Assembly (NCBI GenBank): GCA_009936795.1
Contig: JAACDM010000246.1
Coordinates: 1 to 41,434, forward strand
Length of the DNA stretch: 41,434 nt
Direction: 5' to 3'
Origin: Verrucomicrobiaceae bacterium
Lineage (GTDB): Bacteria > Verrucomicrobiota > Verrucomicrobiia > Verrucomicrobiales > DEV007
Shown: one piece after another, positions 12,985 through 39,706 of the stretch
How positions within the stretch are numbered: position 1 is the first letter of the stretch
How the letters are laid out: each line of letters begins with the position of its first letter
The notes under the pieces: model-generated
The model's input: only the letters and a program-made list of their open reading frames with translations
Databases searched by the model: none
Told to the model about the DNA's origin: nothing
Made by a program: the position numbers and the translations under genes

Positions 12985-13932
12985 TTAAGAGGCGACGGGA
13001 AGGAGAGTGATTTGATGTCCAGTGTGAGCCGGCATTTCTAAGGTTGCTTCCTTCTCAACCTTTTTGACGCCGCAGCGGAACTTGGTTGGGGATTCGCCGA
13101 CATACCGGGAGAACATCCGGTTAAACTGCGAAAGCGAGGTGAAGCCGACATCAAGAGCGATCTCGCTAACTGAATGCGAGGAGTTCAATAAGAGCAGCTT
13201 TGCCTTCTCAATCCGCAGCCGTCCAATGAACTCCGTTAGAGTCGTTCCGGTTGCCTTTTTGAAGCACTTACACAGGTAGAAAGGGCTTACGTCTGCCTGG
13301 TAAGCCATCTGGTCGAGAGACAGATTTTCCGTTAAGTTCTCGACGATGAATTGTTTTGTTTTGGCGATGGCTGGTGGCTCATCCTTCAATCTCATCAGCA
13401 CAAGAAGATTGATATGATCTTCCAGTTGATGGGCGAATAGATCGACTAACTCAACGATACCGGCGTAGCGATTGGGTGATATGACCGTTACCTCGAAGTA
13501 GGCCTCTTTCAGCCGAGTCATGTCGTAGAGACCGCGCTTTTCAGAGAGGCGCGCCACGGCTTGCTTGAAACCGGCCTCGGTCGGCTGGCTTTGCCGTACC
13601 TGCCCCAGCCTCAAATACCCTACGGTTACTTTGTTGTTACGGATGGGAATGGCGGATTCAAGCATGCCGCCGATAGTGGTCGTTGTTACCGCTCCACCAT
13701 TCACTTGTGCCTCTGCTTCCAAAATGGCATTCGCGATTTCCCACGATTGTCCGGATCCTTCCCGAAGCTGTCGGCACAAAGCGCTCTCGTACTCGTGTCC
13801 TTCGTAAGGTAACCGGTGCGCTTCGTTGGCCGGGACGAAGTCGAGAGGCAATCCGATTCCGGCAGCAAAGGCGGTTTGATAGTTCCTGAAGAAATCGCTT
13901 CGAAGAACTCGATCTGCAATGGTGTCATTCAT
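12985..13932 (-). CDS. AraC-family regulator with N-terminal PocR-like sensory domain
   Basis: 315 residues. The N-terminal part (about 10-180) resembles the PocR ligand-sensing domain. The C-terminal 100 residues are two AraC helix-turn-helix motifs (NLSLDQMAYQADVSPFYLCK and SVSEIALDVGFTSLSQFNRM), with the family signature through SPTKFR. Canonical PocR domains carry several conserved cysteines and a CHAGL-like patch. Here only one early cysteine remains (ALCRQ) and the patch reads TTIGGM, so metal or cofactor sensing of the classical kind seems lost. It lies downstream of the GT4-GH130 genes on the same strand, with the broken DUF302 gene between, and may regulate them (inference). Confidence 0.85.
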   Translation of the reverse strand: MNDTIADRVLRSDFFRNYQTAFAAGIGLPLDFVPANEAHRLPYEGHEYESALCRQLREGSGQSWEIANAILEAEAQVNGGAVTTTTIGGMLESAIPIRNNKVTVGYLRLGQVRQSQPTEAGFKQAVARLSEKRGLYDMTRLKEAYFEVTVISPNRYAGIVELVDLFAHQLEDHINLLVLMRLKDEPPAIAKTKQFIVENLTENLSLDQMAYQADVSPFYLCKCFKKATGTTLTEFIGRLRIEKAKLLLLNSSHSVSEIALDVGFTSLSQFNRMFSRYVGESPTKFRCGVKKVEKEATLEMPAHTGHQITLLPVAS

Positions 13933-14342: not shown

Positions 14343-15815
14343 TTAGGATTGCTCAGGGGCATTGGCCATTAGGGCGGCGAGCAGATCATCTAGTGATATG
14401 CTGACAATGGCAGAGGCCTGATCACTCATCGCATAGGGCAGAATCAGAGTGCGTCCGTGAACAAGTGAGCCACAGCTATAGACGACGTTCGGGACGTAGC
14501 CTTCGCGTTCGATGCCTTCGGGCGATAGCAACGGTTCTCGCAGGCGACCAATGACTTTCGTTGGGTCGTTCAAGTCTAGCAGTGCAGCGCCAATGCAGTA
14601 CTTCCTCATGGGTCCGACGCCGTGCGTGATGACCAGCCACCCGGCTTCAGTCTCGATCGGCGAGCCGCAGTTTCCGATCTTCACCGACTCCCACATCTCA
14701 CACGGTCGTAGAATAATCTGTGGGTCGCTCCAGTGATGCGGACTGTCGGAGAACATGATGAATAGATTCTCGTTGTCTTGGCGCGAGAGCATCGCATAGT
14801 TGCCATTGATGAGGCGCGGGAAGAGAGCCATGCCCTTGTTCTGCACCCCGCTACCATTGAGCATTTGAATGCGAAAGTGCAGGAAGTCCTCTGTTTCGAT
14901 GAGCTGCGAGACGATCGTGCTTCCATTGTAGGCCGTGTAAGTGGCGTAGTACGTGACCGTTTGGTCGTCGTCGACGAAGCGGACAAATCGAGCGTCCTCA
15001 ATGCCACTGCTTTCATTGATCGAAACCGGGAAGATGATGCGTTCGGCCATCTCGAGCGTGGGAGAGAAGCGCAGTTCGTAGTTAGAATCGGCGACCCACT
15101 GGATGCATTCGAGAGTGCGATGCAGGCTCGAGGTGGCGGGTCGAGTTTCTCGTCTGACGGTGTGGACACTTCTGTCTAGCTCGCTACGCGTAAATTCCTC
15201 GCCCAGCGGCGCCATGACGGCAGAAGCGTGACTATCATCCAGATCCAACTCATGAAGCTTTGTCAGGAAGCGTCTCTTTTGGTAGCTGGGATCTGGAACG
15301 ATCTCCGGCACCGTGACGAAACGTGAAATAGGCAGGATATCGATGTGCCCCTTCGCCGAGATCGTGCCGACACGGAACTCGATGGATGAGATGTGGCCTT
15401 CACCGGTTGCGCGTAGGCTCATGATGAAACGAAAACCACCGTCGGGCACATCGCTTTGATCGGGGTGAGGCACGATGGACGGATTGAACAAAGCCGCCGA
15501 TTCGAGGGCGTATTCACCGGAGAACAAGGCACCGATTAATAGCCGCCTTTCATTCGATAGAGATCGGTGGGTGAAGACGTGCGTCTTCATCTTGTCATAG
15601 TGCGAGAGCAGGATGCTTTCGATATCGAAGTGCCGCTCGTCAAACTCCTCACGGACGGCGGTCAGTTGCACGAGCACTTCCTCTTCGGTGAGTGCTAGCG
15701 CACGCCCGATGATGGTCGTGATGCTATGGTCATCGCCAGGAATGAATTGCCGGATAATGACACGCGTGCTTTCGGGGTGGAGCGTCAGCTGATGACGGCA
15801 GAGGGGAATACTCAT
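14343..15815 (-). CDS. GH130-family glycoside phosphorylase/hydrolase
   Basis: 490 residues from the ATG at 15815, which overlaps the stop of the upstream glycosyltransferase gene (ATGA), so the two are translationally coupled. The five-bladed propeller family is seen from SGIEDARFVRF (the GH130 ED-x-R block with the catalytic Asp), TYTAYNGSTIVSQL, NKGMALFPRLINGNYAMLSR and GWLVITHGVGPMRKYCIGAALL. GH130 enzymes mostly cleave beta-mannosides, usually with phosphate, and release mannose 1-phosphate. A start further upstream at 15857 would only add residues inside the neighbouring gene. With the glycosyltransferases it probably makes and recycles a short mannose-type oligosaccharide in the cytoplasm (inference). 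Confidence 0.88.
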   Translation of the reverse strand: MSIPLCRHQLTLHPESTRVIIRQFIPGDDHSITTIIGRALALTEEEVLVQLTAVREEFDERHFDIESILLSHYDKMKTHVFTHRSLSNERRLLIGALFSGEYALESAALFNPSIVPHPDQSDVPDGGFRFIMSLRATGEGHISSIEFRVGTISAKGHIDILPISRFVTVPEIVPDPSYQKRRFLTKLHELDLDDSHASAVMAPLGEEFTRSELDRSVHTVRRETRPATSSLHRTLECIQWVADSNYELRFSPTLEMAERIIFPVSINESSGIEDARFVRFVDDDQTVTYYATYTAYNGSTIVSQLIETEDFLHFRIQMLNGSGVQNKGMALFPRLINGNYAMLSRQDNENLFIMFSDSPHHWSDPQIILRPCEMWESVKIGNCGSPIETEAGWLVITHGVGPMRKYCIGAALLDLNDPTKVIGRLREPLLSPEGIEREGYVPNVVYSCGSLVHGRTLILPYAMSDQASAIVSISLDDLLAALMANAPEQS

Positions 15816-18097
15816 GATAGAGGCATGGGGCGCGGCGTGATCCAATGTTCGGCACAATTCATTTCAGCGAGTGCTAGTTGGAAGGCCAGCGTGGACTCGG
15901 CTCCCTGGTTTTCGCTTACGCCGTCTTCGTGCAGACCATCGCTGCAACCGCCCGTGTTAAAGTCGTAGAGCGGAAGTCCGAGATCATTACGGCCGAGAAA
16001 CCACTCAAAGGCGCGCTTCGCTTCGCGTGGCCACACGGGATCATGCGTGATGCGAAAGGCTTGGTGGCATGCGGAAACCATCGCTTGAGCTTCGACAGGT
16101 TGTTGGTCGAACACCGCTCGGATTCCGTCGCGCTGGTAAAAGCCGTTACTGCCGATCGGTCGGAAGCATCCAGAATGCCCCTCCTGAATCGATACGAGCC
16201 AACGCAGGGACTTCAGGCCAATTTGCAGCGTCTCGCCTTGTGGCTTCCATTTGCCATCAAGGATGAGCGCCTGACAGATGCGCGCATTGTCGTAGGTCAC
16301 GTAGGGTTCGAGCCAAGGCCACTCTTCCGTGGAACAGGCGTGCCAGAGACTCACAAGTTTCTCAGTTAGGGTCTCACGCATCGCATTGATCCAACTGCGG
16401 TTCTCGAATTGCCGAAGGTATTCGTGAATCCCAAGTAAGGCGAAGCTCCATGCACGCGGCGAGGTGAAGCTTTCGGCCGCAGGTAGTCCCTGTTCGAAGA
16501 GCTGTGCGGCTAGCCTGCGGTGGCCGTCATTGTGCGGACGTCCAGCGCCTGTCCCCGTCGCCCAAAGCGCACGGGCATGGCTATCTTCACTACCAGCGTC
16601 CTCCAGCCACTGCCGCCCATGACTCATAAAGTTACGAAAACGTCCGCTGTCGTAATCGAGTGCGGCTGCTAGAAAGGCCAGATAGGTGGTCGCGAACTGG
16701 CTCATCTTTCTACTCGGAGGCTGACCTTCAATTTCCTCAAGCAAGCAGCAGAGGATAAAGGAGCGTGCGTTGTCATCGGTGCAGTAGCCTTCATGGAAGT
16801 GGGGCACGTCGAAGATCGCGTGTTGGAAGATGCCCGTGGCATCGCTCATACGCTCGACGTGATCGAGCCGCAGTGGTGGCAACGCGTAAGGCCTACTGTC
16901 GAGTGTCCAGCCCGCGAATGCTTCCCTAGGCAGAGCGCTACGATCCGAACGCGCGTGTTGAAAGGACTCTAAGTACCGCTTCGCGATGGCGGGCCAGATC
17001 ATTTCCCGACCTAACGCATAGGCGTCGCTGCGCATCCGATTCATGCGCTCGGGGTCACTGAGCAACTCGTTGACGCCCTCAGCAATCGCTTTGGGATCAT
17101 GAAAGGGAACGAGCACGCCGCGATCCTCCGCGAGCAGCTCCTGCGCATGCCAGTATGGGGTCGACACCACCGCTTTTCCCGCACCAAACACATAGGAGAG
17201 CGAACCCGAGGTGATCTGCGCTTCCTGAAGGTAGGGGGTCAAATAGATGTCCGTGGCGCCGATGAACTCCTTAAGATCTTCGAGCGACACGAAGCGGTTG
17301 TAGAAGATGACATTCTCTTTAACACCGAGATCTTCGGCCAAACGTTCGAGCCCTAACCGATAGCGTTCACCCTCTTGCTGCACCAAGTGCGGGTGTGTCG
17401 CCCCAAGGATGAGGTAGACCGTTTGTGGGTTCTCCCGCACGATTTCAGGCAGAGCTGGAATCGCGTGCTCAATGCCTTTGCCAGGCCCGATCAGGCCAAA
17501 GGTGAGCAGAACCTGCCGCCCCTCCACACCGAGCTGTGCTTTGAAGCAGCTCGATTCCTCGAATGGCACGTCCGGGATACCGTGCGGAATGATATCAATC
17601 TTCGCTGCGGACACACCGTAGGTCTTACGCAGGATTTCCTCGCCTTTGTTAGCCATGACGACAAGCCGGTCGCTGAGACGAACCACTTCATCGAGCACCT
17701 GGCGTTGTGCCGCACTGGGTTTTTCCAGAATGGTGTGCAGCGTTGTGACTATTGGCATGCGCACCTCTTTCATTAGTGCAAGTAAGTGGCTGCCAGCGGG
17801 GCCACCGTAGATGCCGAATTCGTGCTGTACGCAGAGGACATCAGCATTATTGAAGTTCAGGTAGTCAGCTGCCCGGCGATAGGAATCGAGATCCTTCTCT
17901 TGAAGTTCAAGACGAACACGGGACGGATAGTCGTAGCCCCCGACTCTATCACTGACCGCAACGACAAAGCATTCAGCATCGGGCACCGCACGCGCTACCG
18001 CTTCGCAGATATCCTGGGTAAAGGTGGCGATCCCGCAGAGTCTTGGCACGTAGCCGCCTAGAAAGGCGATGCGTTGCGGCAGTGAAGAAGCAGTCAC
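15812..18097 (-). CDS. GT4 glycosyltransferase fused to a large alpha-helical C-terminal domain
   Basis: 761 residues. Residues 1 to about 390 form a GT-B glycosyltransferase: GGYVPRLCGIATFTQ at the start, VQHEFGIYGG, DIIPHGIPD, LTFGLIGPGKGIEHAI and the donor-site region ITSGSLSYVFGAGKAVVSTPYW. Residues about 400-761 form a helical domain (DDNARSFILCCLL, YVTYDNARICQAL, NTGGCSDGLHEDG, NQGAESTLAFQLAL). It resembles the alpha/alpha-barrel regions seen in other fused enzymes of such clusters, and its activity is not known to me. Its promoter region is the 48-bp element at 18150-18197, which places transcription start near 18145 and a 5' leader of about 48 bases. It is coupled to the GH130 gene by an ATGA overlap. 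Confidence 0.88.
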   Translation of the reverse strand: MTASSLPQRIAFLGGYVPRLCGIATFTQDICEAVARAVPDAECFVVAVSDRVGGYDYPSRVRLELQEKDLDSYRRAADYLNFNNADVLCVQHEFGIYGGPAGSHLLALMKEVRMPIVTTLHTILEKPSAAQRQVLDEVVRLSDRLVVMANKGEEILRKTYGVSAAKIDIIPHGIPDVPFEESSCFKAQLGVEGRQVLLTFGLIGPGKGIEHAIPALPEIVRENPQTVYLILGATHPHLVQQEGERYRLGLERLAEDLGVKENVIFYNRFVSLEDLKEFIGATDIYLTPYLQEAQITSGSLSYVFGAGKAVVSTPYWHAQELLAEDRGVLVPFHDPKAIAEGVNELLSDPERMNRMRSDAYALGREMIWPAIAKRYLESFQHARSDRSALPREAFAGWTLDSRPYALPPLRLDHVERMSDATGIFQHAIFDVPHFHEGYCTDDNARSFILCCLLEEIEGQPPSRKMSQFATTYLAFLAAALDYDSGRFRNFMSHGRQWLEDAGSEDSHARALWATGTGAGRPHNDGHRRLAAQLFEQGLPAAESFTSPRAWSFALLGIHEYLRQFENRSWINAMRETLTEKLVSLWHACSTEEWPWLEPYVTYDNARICQALILDGKWKPQGETLQIGLKSLRWLVSIQEGHSGCFRPIGSNGFYQRDGIRAVFDQQPVEAQAMVSACHQAFRITHDPVWPREAKRAFEWFLGRNDLGLPLYDFNTGGCSDGLHEDGVSENQGAESTLAFQLALAEMNCAEHWITPRPMPLS

Positions 18098-18149
18098 GGC
18101 ACGTTAGGAGGTAGAGTCGTGTCGTCCTGGTTGAAGAAGTTTCATGCAG

Positions 18150-18197
18150 ACACCCTAGAGCGACCGGTATTTTGGCTCAATGGGGTGAAACCCTACC
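18150..18197 (-). promoter_or_regulatory. Shared 48-bp promoter element, copy 1
   Basis: Identical at 45 of 48 positions to 38308-38355. On the minus strand it reads as a GGGTTTCACCC dyad, then TTGAGC (18175-18180), 17 bases, then TAGGGT (18152-18157), a sigma-70-like spacing. It faces the glycosyltransferase gene whose start is at 18097. The dyad GGGT-N3-ACCC at 18183-18193 lies just upstream of the -35 position, where an activator would bind. Confidence 0.7.
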
Positions 18198-18309
18198 AGC
18201 GGGGCAATTGTTGATCTGAAAACGGGAACTCCGCCTTCCAAGCAGGGTGCAACGGACTACCGTAGTGTTTCTCCCCATAAGCGCCTCACCGCGCCAGTAG
18301 CATGCGCCT

Positions 18310-18500
18310 GTCAATTGGAAGGCATTGGCTCGGTGGGACTCGCTCTAAAGTTAGATCCGAGCGACGAGCAGGGTGATGGCTTTGACTTAATCGGCCACGG
18401 CGAAAGGGCCGATCGGTTTCACATCGGCGGCATGCAGGTGGGAGTGAACGTTCGCAACTCGTCCAGATCTGCAGCTCGCCTAACGGGGGTGGATGGCCGC
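18310..18500 (-). pseudogene. Relic of an N-ATPase gamma-subunit gene (atpG)
   Basis: Aligns by eye with 38790-38965 inside the intact atpG. Shared blocks include CTCGGTGGGACTCGCTCT, GGCCGATCGGTTTCA and CGTCCAGATCTGC, with insertions, deletions and substitutions between. No frame is open. It lies next to copy 1 of the 48-bp element, as the intact atpG lies next to copy 2, so gene end and promoter were duplicated together. Confidence 0.8.
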
Positions 18501-18613: not shown

Positions 18614-18715
18614 ATGAGATTCGATCGTTTCACAATTAAGATGCAAGAAGCATTGCAAGCCGCTCAAGAAATGGCGGCTGACAAGGGAAACTCGGAGATC
18701 AATAGCGCGCACCTC
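18614..18715 (+). pseudogene. Detached 5' end of clpB (first 34 codons)
   Basis: An ATG at 18614 encodes MRFDRFTIKMQEALQAAQEM and continues through INSAHL, the exact start of the ClpB N-terminal domain. Similarity ends after codon 34. The frame then reads unrelated residues and stops. The ClpB-like sequence resumes at 23985 in a position equivalent to about residue 89 of ClpB, so roughly 54 codons are missing and about 5.3 kb of other DNA intervenes. Confidence 0.85.
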
Positions 18716-18920
18716 CCGATACGGTGTATGCGAACGTATCCGAATGGTTAGGTCGTCAGCCGACCGCAACTGGGACCGTCGCAGCTCAGCCGAACATGGG
18801 GAACGAGCTAGATGCCCGCCGTAAAGAACACCATCCGCATTTTCAGCTGCAGGCAACCGCCGAAACTGAATTCCGCGCTTCCATTCCAGTGAACAACCGG
18901 CGTTTGTACGATAGCGGGCA
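18716..18920. other. Junction DNA between the clpB 5' fragment and nhaA
   Basis: A plus-strand open frame (18724-18924) reads DTVYANVSEWLGRQPTATGT and on, without a start of its own. It looks like coding debris, but I do not recognise the family. No other gene is supported here. Confidence 0.35.
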
Positions 18921-37859: not shown

Positions 37860-38303
37860 CTACTCGCCAGCAAATCCCTCTTTGATCAGTGAACAAAGCA
37901 TGTCGAGATCAACGGGCTTTGAAAACACACCAAGAGGGTTCTCCCCATGTGCTTCTTCAAGGCGATCAGAGAATCCGCTGATGAAGATCACAAATGCTTC
38001 GGGGCATAGAGGGCGTAGCCGCCGATACGTTTCCACTCCATCGATTCCCGGCATTCTGATATCCAGCAAGACCCCATCAGGCTTGGTCTGCTGCGCCATC
38101 TCGATAGCTTCCAACCCAGACCCTGCCACATCTACGTCGTAGCCTCGAAACTTCATGATTCTGCACATGCTGCTCAGCAAATCCGGTTCATCGTCAACGA
38201 GGAGCAGGCGCTTGCGGCCTAACTGAAACTGCGGCAACTTAGATTCTGCCATGATCCTTGTGGACTGCATTCGTTCATCGCAAGTCGCTTCAAGTGCAAT
38301 CAT
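37860..38303 (-). CDS. Receiver-only response regulator (CheY-like)
   Basis: An open frame of 147 codons with a single receiver domain: LLLVDDEPDLL acidic pocket, phospho-acceptor Asp in GVLLDIRMPGIDG, FISGFS (Ser in the Thr/Ser position) and FSKPVD (Lys). No DNA-binding output domain is present, so it acts by protein contact or in a phosphorelay. The hybrid kinase at 2.5 kb is one possible partner (inference). The promoter element at 38308-38355 places transcription start near 38303, so translation probably starts at the internal ATG at 38270 or 38252 rather than at 38303. It lies just downstream of atpG on the same strand. Confidence 0.85.
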   Translation of the reverse strand: MIALEATCDERMQSTRIMAESKLPQFQLGRKRLLLVDDEPDLLSSMCRIMKFRGYDVDVAGSGLEAIEMAQQTKPDGVLLDIRMPGIDGVETYRRLRPLCPEAFVIFISGFSDRLEEAHGENPLGVFSKPVDLDMLCSLIKEGFAGE

Positions 38304-38307
38304 CCAA

Positions 38308-38355
38308 ACACCCTAGAGTGACCGGTATTTCAGCTCAATGGGGTGAAACCCTACC
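38308..38355 (-). promoter_or_regulatory. Shared 48-bp promoter element, copy 2
   Basis: 45 of 48 bases identical to 18150-18197. Minus-strand layout: GGGTTTCACCC dyad (38341-38351), TTGAGC (38333-38338), 17-base spacer, TAGGGT (38310-38315). It faces the receiver gene. The conserved spacer and conserved dyad in two unlinked places argue for function. Confidence 0.7.
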
Positions 38356-38397: not shown

Positions 38398-39279
38398 CTA
38401 GCTCAAGGCTTCGAAGCCGGAGACGACGTCAAATAGTTCTTCGTCTATGCTGCTCTGGCGGAGGCGGTGGAAGCCGTCTTGAAGGTTTGATAGTAGCTCG
38501 TCTATATTCTTGTCCGCACGTTGCATAGAGGCAAGACGGGTGGCGTTTTCGCTAGTTAAGGATTCGGCGCAGGCCTGGAAGAGGGTGATGAAGAGATACT
38601 CGCGGAGCAGGCTGCGCAGAGTTGTGCTACCACTGCCCACTATTTCGGGTAGGTTCTTGGACGGCCATTGGATGTCCGTTAGCCTCTGTTCCCAGGAGGC
38701 GTCGAGCGGGAGCAAACGCTGACTGACAGGTTCGTAGATTGAGCCAGGCAGTGGGCGATTGTGGAAGACAACCATGCTGCTGTATTCGCCTTTGACTCGG
38801 TGGGACTCGCTCTCGACTTGGATCTGAGCGACCAGCGGGGTGATTGCTTTGACGGTGTTTGGCACGGCGAGTAGGCCGATCGGTTTCAGGCCGGCGTCGC
38901 TCAAGCGGGCGTGGACGCGTTCGCCGATCGTCCAGATCTGCGGCTCGCCTGGCAGGGCGGCGAGGGGTTTGATGGCAAAGTCTGCCACGACGTCGTTGAA
39001 CTGACCGACCAGACCCTGATCGGAACCGAAGACGATAGCGCCCACCTTTTCCCCATCGTGCCGCTGGGTCTGATCGAGCAAAGTGGGCGTCGCCTTGTTC
39101 GCGCGCAGCCAGACGCTTAAGCCAAGCTCCCCCGCGCGATTGTAGTCCACCAGCGCGCGCACCGAGTTCTCGTATTGTCCGATACTCGACGCGGCAAGTG
39201 CCTTCATCGTGCGCACGACGGATTGCAGATCACCCGCGCTGTGAATCTGGCGTCGCAGGCTCTCGATGGTGTCACTCAT
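38398..39279 (-). CDS. atpG: N-type ATPase gamma subunit
   Basis: 293 residues from ATG 39279 (MSDTIESLRRQIHSAGDLQS), the central rotor shaft of the alternative F-type (N-) ATPase. The N-terminal helix (VVRTMKALAASSIGQYE) and C-terminal helix (SENATRLASMQRADKNIDEL) form the coiled coil, and VGAIVFGSDQGLVGQFND is the Rossmann-like middle part. It is more divergent than housekeeping gamma, as expected for the N-ATPase family. In known N-ATPase operons (order atpDCQRBEFAG) it directly follows atpA, but here a lipoprotein gene lies between. A decayed partial copy is found at 18310-18500. Confidence 0.85.
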   Translation of the reverse strand: MSDTIESLRRQIHSAGDLQSVVRTMKALAASSIGQYENSVRALVDYNRAGELGLSVWLRANKATPTLLDQTQRHDGEKVGAIVFGSDQGLVGQFNDVVADFAIKPLAALPGEPQIWTIGERVHARLSDAGLKPIGLLAVPNTVKAITPLVAQIQVESESHRVKGEYSSMVVFHNRPLPGSIYEPVSQRLLPLDASWEQRLTDIQWPSKNLPEIVGSGSTTLRSLLREYLFITLFQACAESLTSENATRLASMQRADKNIDELLSNLQDGFHRLRQSSIDEELFDVVSGFEALS

Positions 39280-39324
39280 GGTTCTAACGCTTCTGGGGCA
39301 TCGCACCGCTTCTCCGCGAACCGC

Positions 39325-39624
39325 CTACTTATTCTCCGCATCGAGCTTAGTTTCTGCAGCCTCAGCGGCCGCCTCTAATTTCTTCCTATCAGCGTCGAGT
39401 TGCGCCTGAGCGGCTTTCTTCTTGGCTTCGATGTCTGCCTTTTCGGTCACAGCATCGAGGTCTGCGCCCTTCTTCGCTTCCTTGGCAGCGACATCGACTG
39501 CTTCCTTCTGGCTGTCGATGGCATCCTCGCTAGCCTCTTTCTTTTGTTCGATAGCTTCTTCTTTGGCGCAGGAGACGAAAAGGAAAGCGGAGGCAATGAC
39601 AATGACAAGTTTTGAGTATTTCAT
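39325..39624 (-). CDS. Small lipoprotein with a charged helical repeat region
   Basis: 99 residues from ATG 39624. The signal peptide MKYSKLVIVIASAFLFVSC has a lipobox-like LFVSC, which predicts lipid anchoring at the cysteine. The mature part is almost entirely Lys/Glu/Ala/Asp helix with 7- to 11-residue periodicity (EAIEQKKEASEDAIDSQKEA), likely a periplasmic coiled coil. No enzyme motif. It lies between atpA and atpG of the N-ATPase operon on the same strand, with a weak copy of the 48-bp element upstream (39685-39706). It could be an unrelated insertion or an envelope-stress accessory. Family unknown. Confidence 0.75.
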   Translation of the reverse strand: MKYSKLVIVIASAFLFVSCAKEEAIEQKKEASEDAIDSQKEAVDVAAKEAKKGADLDAVTEKADIEAKKKAAQAQLDADRKKLEAAAEAAETKLDAENK

Positions 39625-39684
39625 AATGTTATCCACATCGTTTGTTTGATGCACTTGATTAGGTTGGCAAGGGAGTCCGACACC

Positions 39685-39706
39685 TTCAATGGGGTGTATA
39701 CCTACC
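39685..39706 (-). promoter_or_regulatory. Weak third copy of the promoter element's upstream half
   Basis: TTCAATGGGGTGTATACC and TACC match the first half of the 48-bp element at 18 of 22 positions. The -10 half is not conserved. It lies about 60 bases before the lipoprotein gene on the minus strand. Confidence 0.35.

Follow-up and report, generated by a model that had tools for sequence, protein, structure and literature searches.

We asked what a 48-bp promoter-like element is doing twice on the minus strand of one contig, before a glycosyltransferase operon and again before a receiver gene. The window, meaning the whole stretch analysed, is the 41,434-nt contig JAACDM010000246.1 of a Verrucomicrobiaceae bacterium (assembly GCA_009936795.1). 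An initial annotation, made from the sequence alone, had read the element as a regulon promoter controlled by one factor, and had also raised the possibility that it spread by duplication of the adjacent atpG-promoter junction. We find that the repeat is the real promoter of a large regulon, a 17-base operator fused to a promoter, although protein binding and the inducing signal are untested.

Sites in the window

Direct comparison of 18150-18197 with 38308-38355 gave identity at 45 of 48 positions, and a pattern scan for TAGGGTTTCACCCCATTGAGC-N17-TAGGGT found exactly two matches in the window, with 0.00 expected in shuffles. These results confirm the layout described for the minus strand: dyad, TTGAGC, 17-base spacer, TAGGGT. 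With blastn the homologous block grows to 56 bp at 91% identity (18142-18197 and 38300-38355). Transcription from copy 1 is predicted to start near 18145, for which there are no transcription-start data. The features are collected in Table 1.

Table 1. Promoter elements, target genes, relics and candidate regulatory genes (window coordinates unless a contig or locus is named)
Feature	Position	Strand	Basis or remark
Copy 1 operator core GTAGGGTTTCACCCCAT, TAGGGT-N3-ACCCCA dyad	18180-18196	-	weight-matrix score 37.5
Copy 1 -35-like TTGAGC, abutting dyad	18175-18180	-	general form at other sites T(A/G)GC(G/A)A
Copy 1 -10 box TAGGGT (TANNNT class)	18152-18157	-	coincides with emergent T39, A40, T44 at sites of other genomes
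Copy 2 operator core GTAGGGTTTCACCCCAT	38338-38354	-	weight-matrix score 36.5
Copy 2 -35-like TTGAGC	38333-38338	-	sequence comparison
Copy 2 -10 box TAGGGT	38310-38315	-	predicted transcription start ~38303
Third, weaker operator GTAGGTATACACCCCAT	39689-39705	-	score 22.4; G18, A40, T44 (CAACCT) retained
Glycosyltransferase family 4 gene, first under copy 1	15812-18097	-	Pfam
GH130-like gene, next after glycosyltransferase	14343-15857	-	same operon
Single-domain response-regulator receiver under copy 2	37860-38252	-	Pfam Response_reg, E 6.7e-21; start MAESKL...
Small lipoprotein-like gene between atpA and atpG, third-site target	39325-39624	-	homologues behind motif
atpG relic, far side of copy 1 from glycosyltransferase	18325-18490	-	77% to 38792-38957 over 166 bp
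Intact atpG, 3' end 43 bp from copy 2	38398-39306	-	Pfam ATP-synt
NarL/LuxR-type response regulator	C627:16529-17209 (L010)		Pfam Response_reg + GerE
First kinase-operon gene	L010:14672-15379		RsbU_N-family protein, HisKA_3-like phospho-acceptor region, no ATPase domain

The window holds a third site that the initial annotation had missed, with three mismatches to the core and a predicted start near 39654. Scoring used a weight matrix trained solely on other genomes, whose shuffle maximum was -2.5; besides the three sites, nothing in the window and none of the 3-mismatch matches on other contigs reaches 12. A two-mismatch match at 18262 on the plus strand was rejected, having neither G18 nor a -10 box.

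Duplication with atpG

The atpG relic and copy 1 lie in the same order and on the same strand as intact atpG and copy 2. The two window copies share 17 of their 20 spacer bases, against an average of 5.9 ± 2.2 between pairs of sites, so that the spacer likeness was inherited by duplication and not selected. The proposal of spread through the atpG junction thus holds for the two window copies, which, judged by the relic and the spacer, share an origin by a duplication that included atpG. By the same figures the conservation of the 17-base spacer cannot be taken as a regulatory signal, and functional conservation of the whole 48 bp was rejected, since nothing beyond the core, G18 and the -10 box is common to unrelated sites.

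That common origin is also what would support the purely passive explanation, by which the copies are alike merely through copying of the junction and have no regulatory role. It does not account for the ten host sites, nor for the many others in the phylum, with their fixed -10 geometry and conserved targets, and divergence is smaller in the element (91% identity) than in the relic (77%; p = 0.02); we consider it hardly tenable.

Beside the atpG relic lies a relic of the clpB N-terminus (18614-18900) that had also gone unrecorded, with 78% identity over its first 97 bp to the clpB of contig C627; the stretch at 18.3-18.9 kb is a graveyard of duplicated gene fragments.

Sites elsewhere in the host genome

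The initial annotation had called for a genome-wide motif scan and would have been refuted had no further copies been found upstream of genes in this or related genomes; such copies were found in both. The 6.6-Mb host genome has seven exact occurrences of the core GTAGGGTTTCACCCCAT; with two single-mismatch sites (one in C528) and the third window site, the total is ten. Seven, none of them in the initial annotation, lie outside the window, six of these on contig C627, and nearly all host sites precede genes in the same direction. The C627 targets so oriented are a class I aldolase operon, a sigma70_r2 protein, a PRC-barrel protein, a PIG-L/glycosyltransferase operon, an operon for an RsbU_N protein, a histidine kinase and a NarL regulator, and a lipoprotein gene. 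Every host site identified through the core alone has G at the third position of the -35-like box, and at several of the host sites the -10 box is poor. The other weak host matches, with three mismatches, were rejected, none outside C605, C627 and C528 scoring above 12.

Distribution and promoter geometry

An exact match to the core plus one downstream G was sought in the GTDB collection (about 85,000 genomes), yielding at least 117 loci. Nearly all of the matches listed belong to Verrucomicrobiota/Lentisphaerae/Kiritimatiellae, and the groups among them include Verrucomicrobia, Akkermansiaceae, Lentisphaerae, Kiritimatiellae, Limisphaerales and Opitutaceae. G18 was fixed in this query, so its conservation there is not independent. 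The -10 region lay outside the query, nearly all of the 94 sites examined having been chosen by core and G18 alone, and a TANNNT box nevertheless emerges: A40 in 77 sites (p = 7e-31), T44 in 71 (p = 1e-24) and T39 in 53 (p = 9e-11), with no comparable signal at any other position from 60 bp upstream to 80 bp downstream. These are exactly the positions of TAGGGT in the window, as the initial annotation had called them. Of 388 genomes of the phylum, 34 have the strict pattern of core plus -10 box, at up to 14 sites each, and none has the reversed pattern. The further sites, the emergent -10 box and the strict-pattern scan all support a regulon under one factor. In one well-sampled genus (g19) neither the strict motif nor the regulator described below is present in any listed member. 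Most genomes searched are fragmented assemblies, and outside the window a simple ORF rule set the gene starts and the choice of first genes.

The dyad, centred near -43, abuts the -35 position, where most sites keep no more than T-N-G, a poor -35 box. With the operator at a fixed spacing from the -10 box and overlapping the -35 region, the arrangement is that of a class II activator promoter. Repressors also bind where the dyad lies, against the -35 region, and no expression data are available to decide, so one may ask whether the regulator or another protein instead blocks a constitutive promoter. The poor -35 box, the upstream position of the dyad with its centre near -43, and tandem arrays reaching upstream are typical of activator sites, however, and we think a repressor operator improbable.

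Genes downstream of the sites

The initial annotation had also proposed comparing the upstream regions of orthologues, and here the motif recurs: orthologues of the copy 1 target, at 57-59% identity, stand directly behind it in L150 (Kiritimatiellae), L156 and L157 (subdivision 3), followed by GH130 in L150 and L156. For the receiver gene the ATG at 38252 is most likely the start, rather than 38303, which gives both window promoters similar leaders of about 48-51 nt. The receiver protein resembles others only as receivers in general do, which leaves its membership of the circuit unproven. In L109 and L122, homologues of the third-site lipoprotein gene come immediately after the motif. In the window this motif-driven gene (39325-39705 with its site) sits within the ATPase operon, between atpA and atpG, and a stress circuit may read through from it into atpG and the receiver gene.

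Among 112 first genes the commonest families are BON, HisKA_3 (the kinase operon), ice-binding, DUF3309, DUF5670 and glycosyltransferase family 4; sigma70, PRC, RsbU_N, GH1, DUF4142 and phosphoketolase are also frequent. A general-stress function is suggested only by the presence of the BON, PRC, YflT, DUF3309, DUF5670, DUF4142, ice-binding and phosphoketolase families, there being no stress experiment. A large polyketide-synthase-like gene, at least 2,500 codons long, follows the motif in two Akkermansiaceae loci (L078, L088).

The candidate regulator and its kinase operon

The host genome encodes only two GerE proteins at E <= 1e-8, one of which is the NarL/LuxR regulator of C627. At E <= 1e-60, 27 of the 34 motif genomes have an orthologue of it, against 20 of the 354 others (Fisher p = 1e-22, without correction for phylogeny), while the host's other GerE regulator, also NarL-type and used as control, is found in 6 of the 34 and has no association (p = 0.15). 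The seven motif genomes without an orthologue at this threshold are all incomplete assemblies; three have a distant one (36-44% identity) and four have none even at 1e-35. Conversely, 20 genomes have the regulator without the strict motif, and most of these carry variant sites, numbering 85 against 14 for the reversed pattern in regulator-only genomes; where the regulator is absent the figures are 17 and 12. In 11 genomes, drawn from several families, a motif follows the regulator stop codon by 20-190 bp on the same strand, and the motif precedes the kinase operon in the host and in L092, L131, L133, L140, L145 and L245. The helix-turn-helix of the regulator and its C-terminal IIESSVQ signature are highly conserved.

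Pfam finds the RsbU_N domain in eight of nine members of the family of the first kinase-operon gene. The second protein is related to the first and adds HATPase_c, making it a full kinase, for which the first is possibly a decoy or phosphate reservoir. A Foldseek search of the RsbU_N/HisKA_3 protein model against PDB gave no match at E <= 0.001; it was uninformative owing to the model's long coiled coil, and the RsbU_N assignment rests on Pfam.

The NarL/LuxR regulator with its RsbU_N-domain kinase most likely controls the promoter and its own genes, with binding inferred. Since one copy precedes the receiver gene, the initial annotation had supposed that the circuit might regulate itself indirectly; autoregulation does appear probable, but by a direct route, through the motif before the kinase/NarL operon on another contig.

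We therefore hold with good confidence that the element is an activator-dependent sigma70-type promoter of an autoregulated NarL-regulator stress regulon, its two window copies having been duplicated with atpG. The motif, promoter geometry, conservation, targets, regulator association and duplication are established at the level of sequence; it is inferred, without binding, expression or transcription-start data, that the C627 regulator binds the core, that the effect is to activate and not to repress, and that the signal is stress. In the proposed mechanism the phosphorylated regulator would bind the 17-bp dyad, abutting the poor -35 box, and the bound dimer would recruit RNA polymerase to the TANNNT box at its fixed spacing (class II activation). 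The regulator would be produced together with the histidine kinase, which has an RsbU_N-like region, and with the RsbU_N/HisKA_3 protein of the first gene, which lacks the ATPase domain, and the motif before their operon would make the circuit autoregulatory. The regulon would then serve general stress or survival and be conserved over much of Verrucomicrobiota, and in the window it would drive the glycosyltransferase-GH130 operon, the receiver protein and the lipoprotein inside the ATPase operon.

The promoter could also be real and the bound protein a different one, the NarL regulator being merely a co-inherited target. Candidates are the small sigma70_r2 protein at C627:7924, which lies 69 bp from its own motif copy, an AraC/PocR protein (12985-13932) and an unknown DNA-binding protein; sigma-like genes stand behind the motif in L084 and L101, and the four motif genomes without a close regulator fit as well. 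Yet a dyad with a TANNNT -10 box suits an activator working with the housekeeping sigma factor better than an alternative sigma factor, AraC-type homologues occur in just one motif locus, and it is the NarL regulator that tracks the motif and is in operon or synteny with it in many families. Another factor seems unlikely, if somewhat less so than repression, and we retain the NarL regulator as the probable activator.

Comparison with known systems

The circuit shows the sequence features expected of NarL/LuxR class II control, namely a dyad operator shared by many promoters, a co-occurring receiver-GerE regulator and a fixed distance to the -10 box, direct binding and activation being inferred. 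In its working it most resembles DosR/DevR of mycobacteria and OsdR of Streptomyces, which likewise combine a NarL-type regulator, GGG...CCC dyad operators, autoregulation and stress or dormancy genes; OsdR governs a NarL-family dormancy regulon with the consensus AGGGCCGATCGGCCCT (PMC5069765). The core GTAGGGTTTCACCCCAT does not match that operator type, differing in arms and spacing, and the circuit is for this reason not assigned there. TAGGGT-N3-ACCCCA has a closer arm spacing, occurs in a different phylum and keeps a rigid class II distance to the -10 box. DosR-type kinases rely on haem GAF sensing; here the kinase has an RsbU_N-like region, and the target list is largely different.

SigB partner switching (RsbU, RsbT) shares RsbU_N at the input and the target families YflT, CsbD-like and general-stress proteins, but here a NarL response regulator and a DNA operator form the output, in place of an alternative sigma factor having its own -35 and -10 boxes. 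The SigB arrangement of RsbU_N on a PP2C phosphatase, RsbV/W and sigma output is absent: RsbU_N is fused to HisKA_3, a full kinase gene follows, and the operon ends in the NarL regulator. In the EcfG/PhyR system of Alphaproteobacteria, two-component input controls a stress regulon across a large taxon and PhyR frees a sigma factor. Two-component input and wide taxonomic range are found here likewise, with a DNA-binding response regulator and a sigma70-like -10 box instead.

In the open-access literature (subscription papers were mostly not covered) we found no description of this circuit, of a stress regulon in Verrucomicrobiota or of any regulon there with this operator. Whether the general stress response of Verrucomicrobiota is a dedicated RsbU_N-kinase/NarL system on a class II promoter code, and not an alternative sigma factor, is a proposition that we find evenly balanced. 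If true, it would add another kind of general stress response to the SigB, RpoS and EcfG/PhyR types of other bacteria, and its promoter code could be read from genome sequence alone. Because the reversed pattern had no matches, the operator with its -10 box is specific enough to read regulon membership from metagenome-assembled genomes of mostly uncultured species. The hypothesis of a single regulator lends itself to testing in cultured relatives, and brings many orphan stress families and carbohydrate operons together under a common switch.

Variant and tandem operators

In family f9, variants like GTAGGG-N4-GCCCCAT stand right behind the regulator gene with the same -10 spacing (G371:C72:15944, G205:C1:2255838, G353:C1:1777427 and G148:C10:7050), which suggests co-evolved specificity. 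A near-perfect palindrome, ATGGGGTGTTCACCCCAT, is found before a YflT stress gene on the minus strand of the host contig (C627:7130; L010:7130-7150); it was not counted despite this position, having one extra base between the arms and a score below 12. Tandem operators, two or three copies at 23-bp spacing before a single promoter, occur in Lentisphaerae (L068, L089, L104, L115 and G449:C11:11355-11445).
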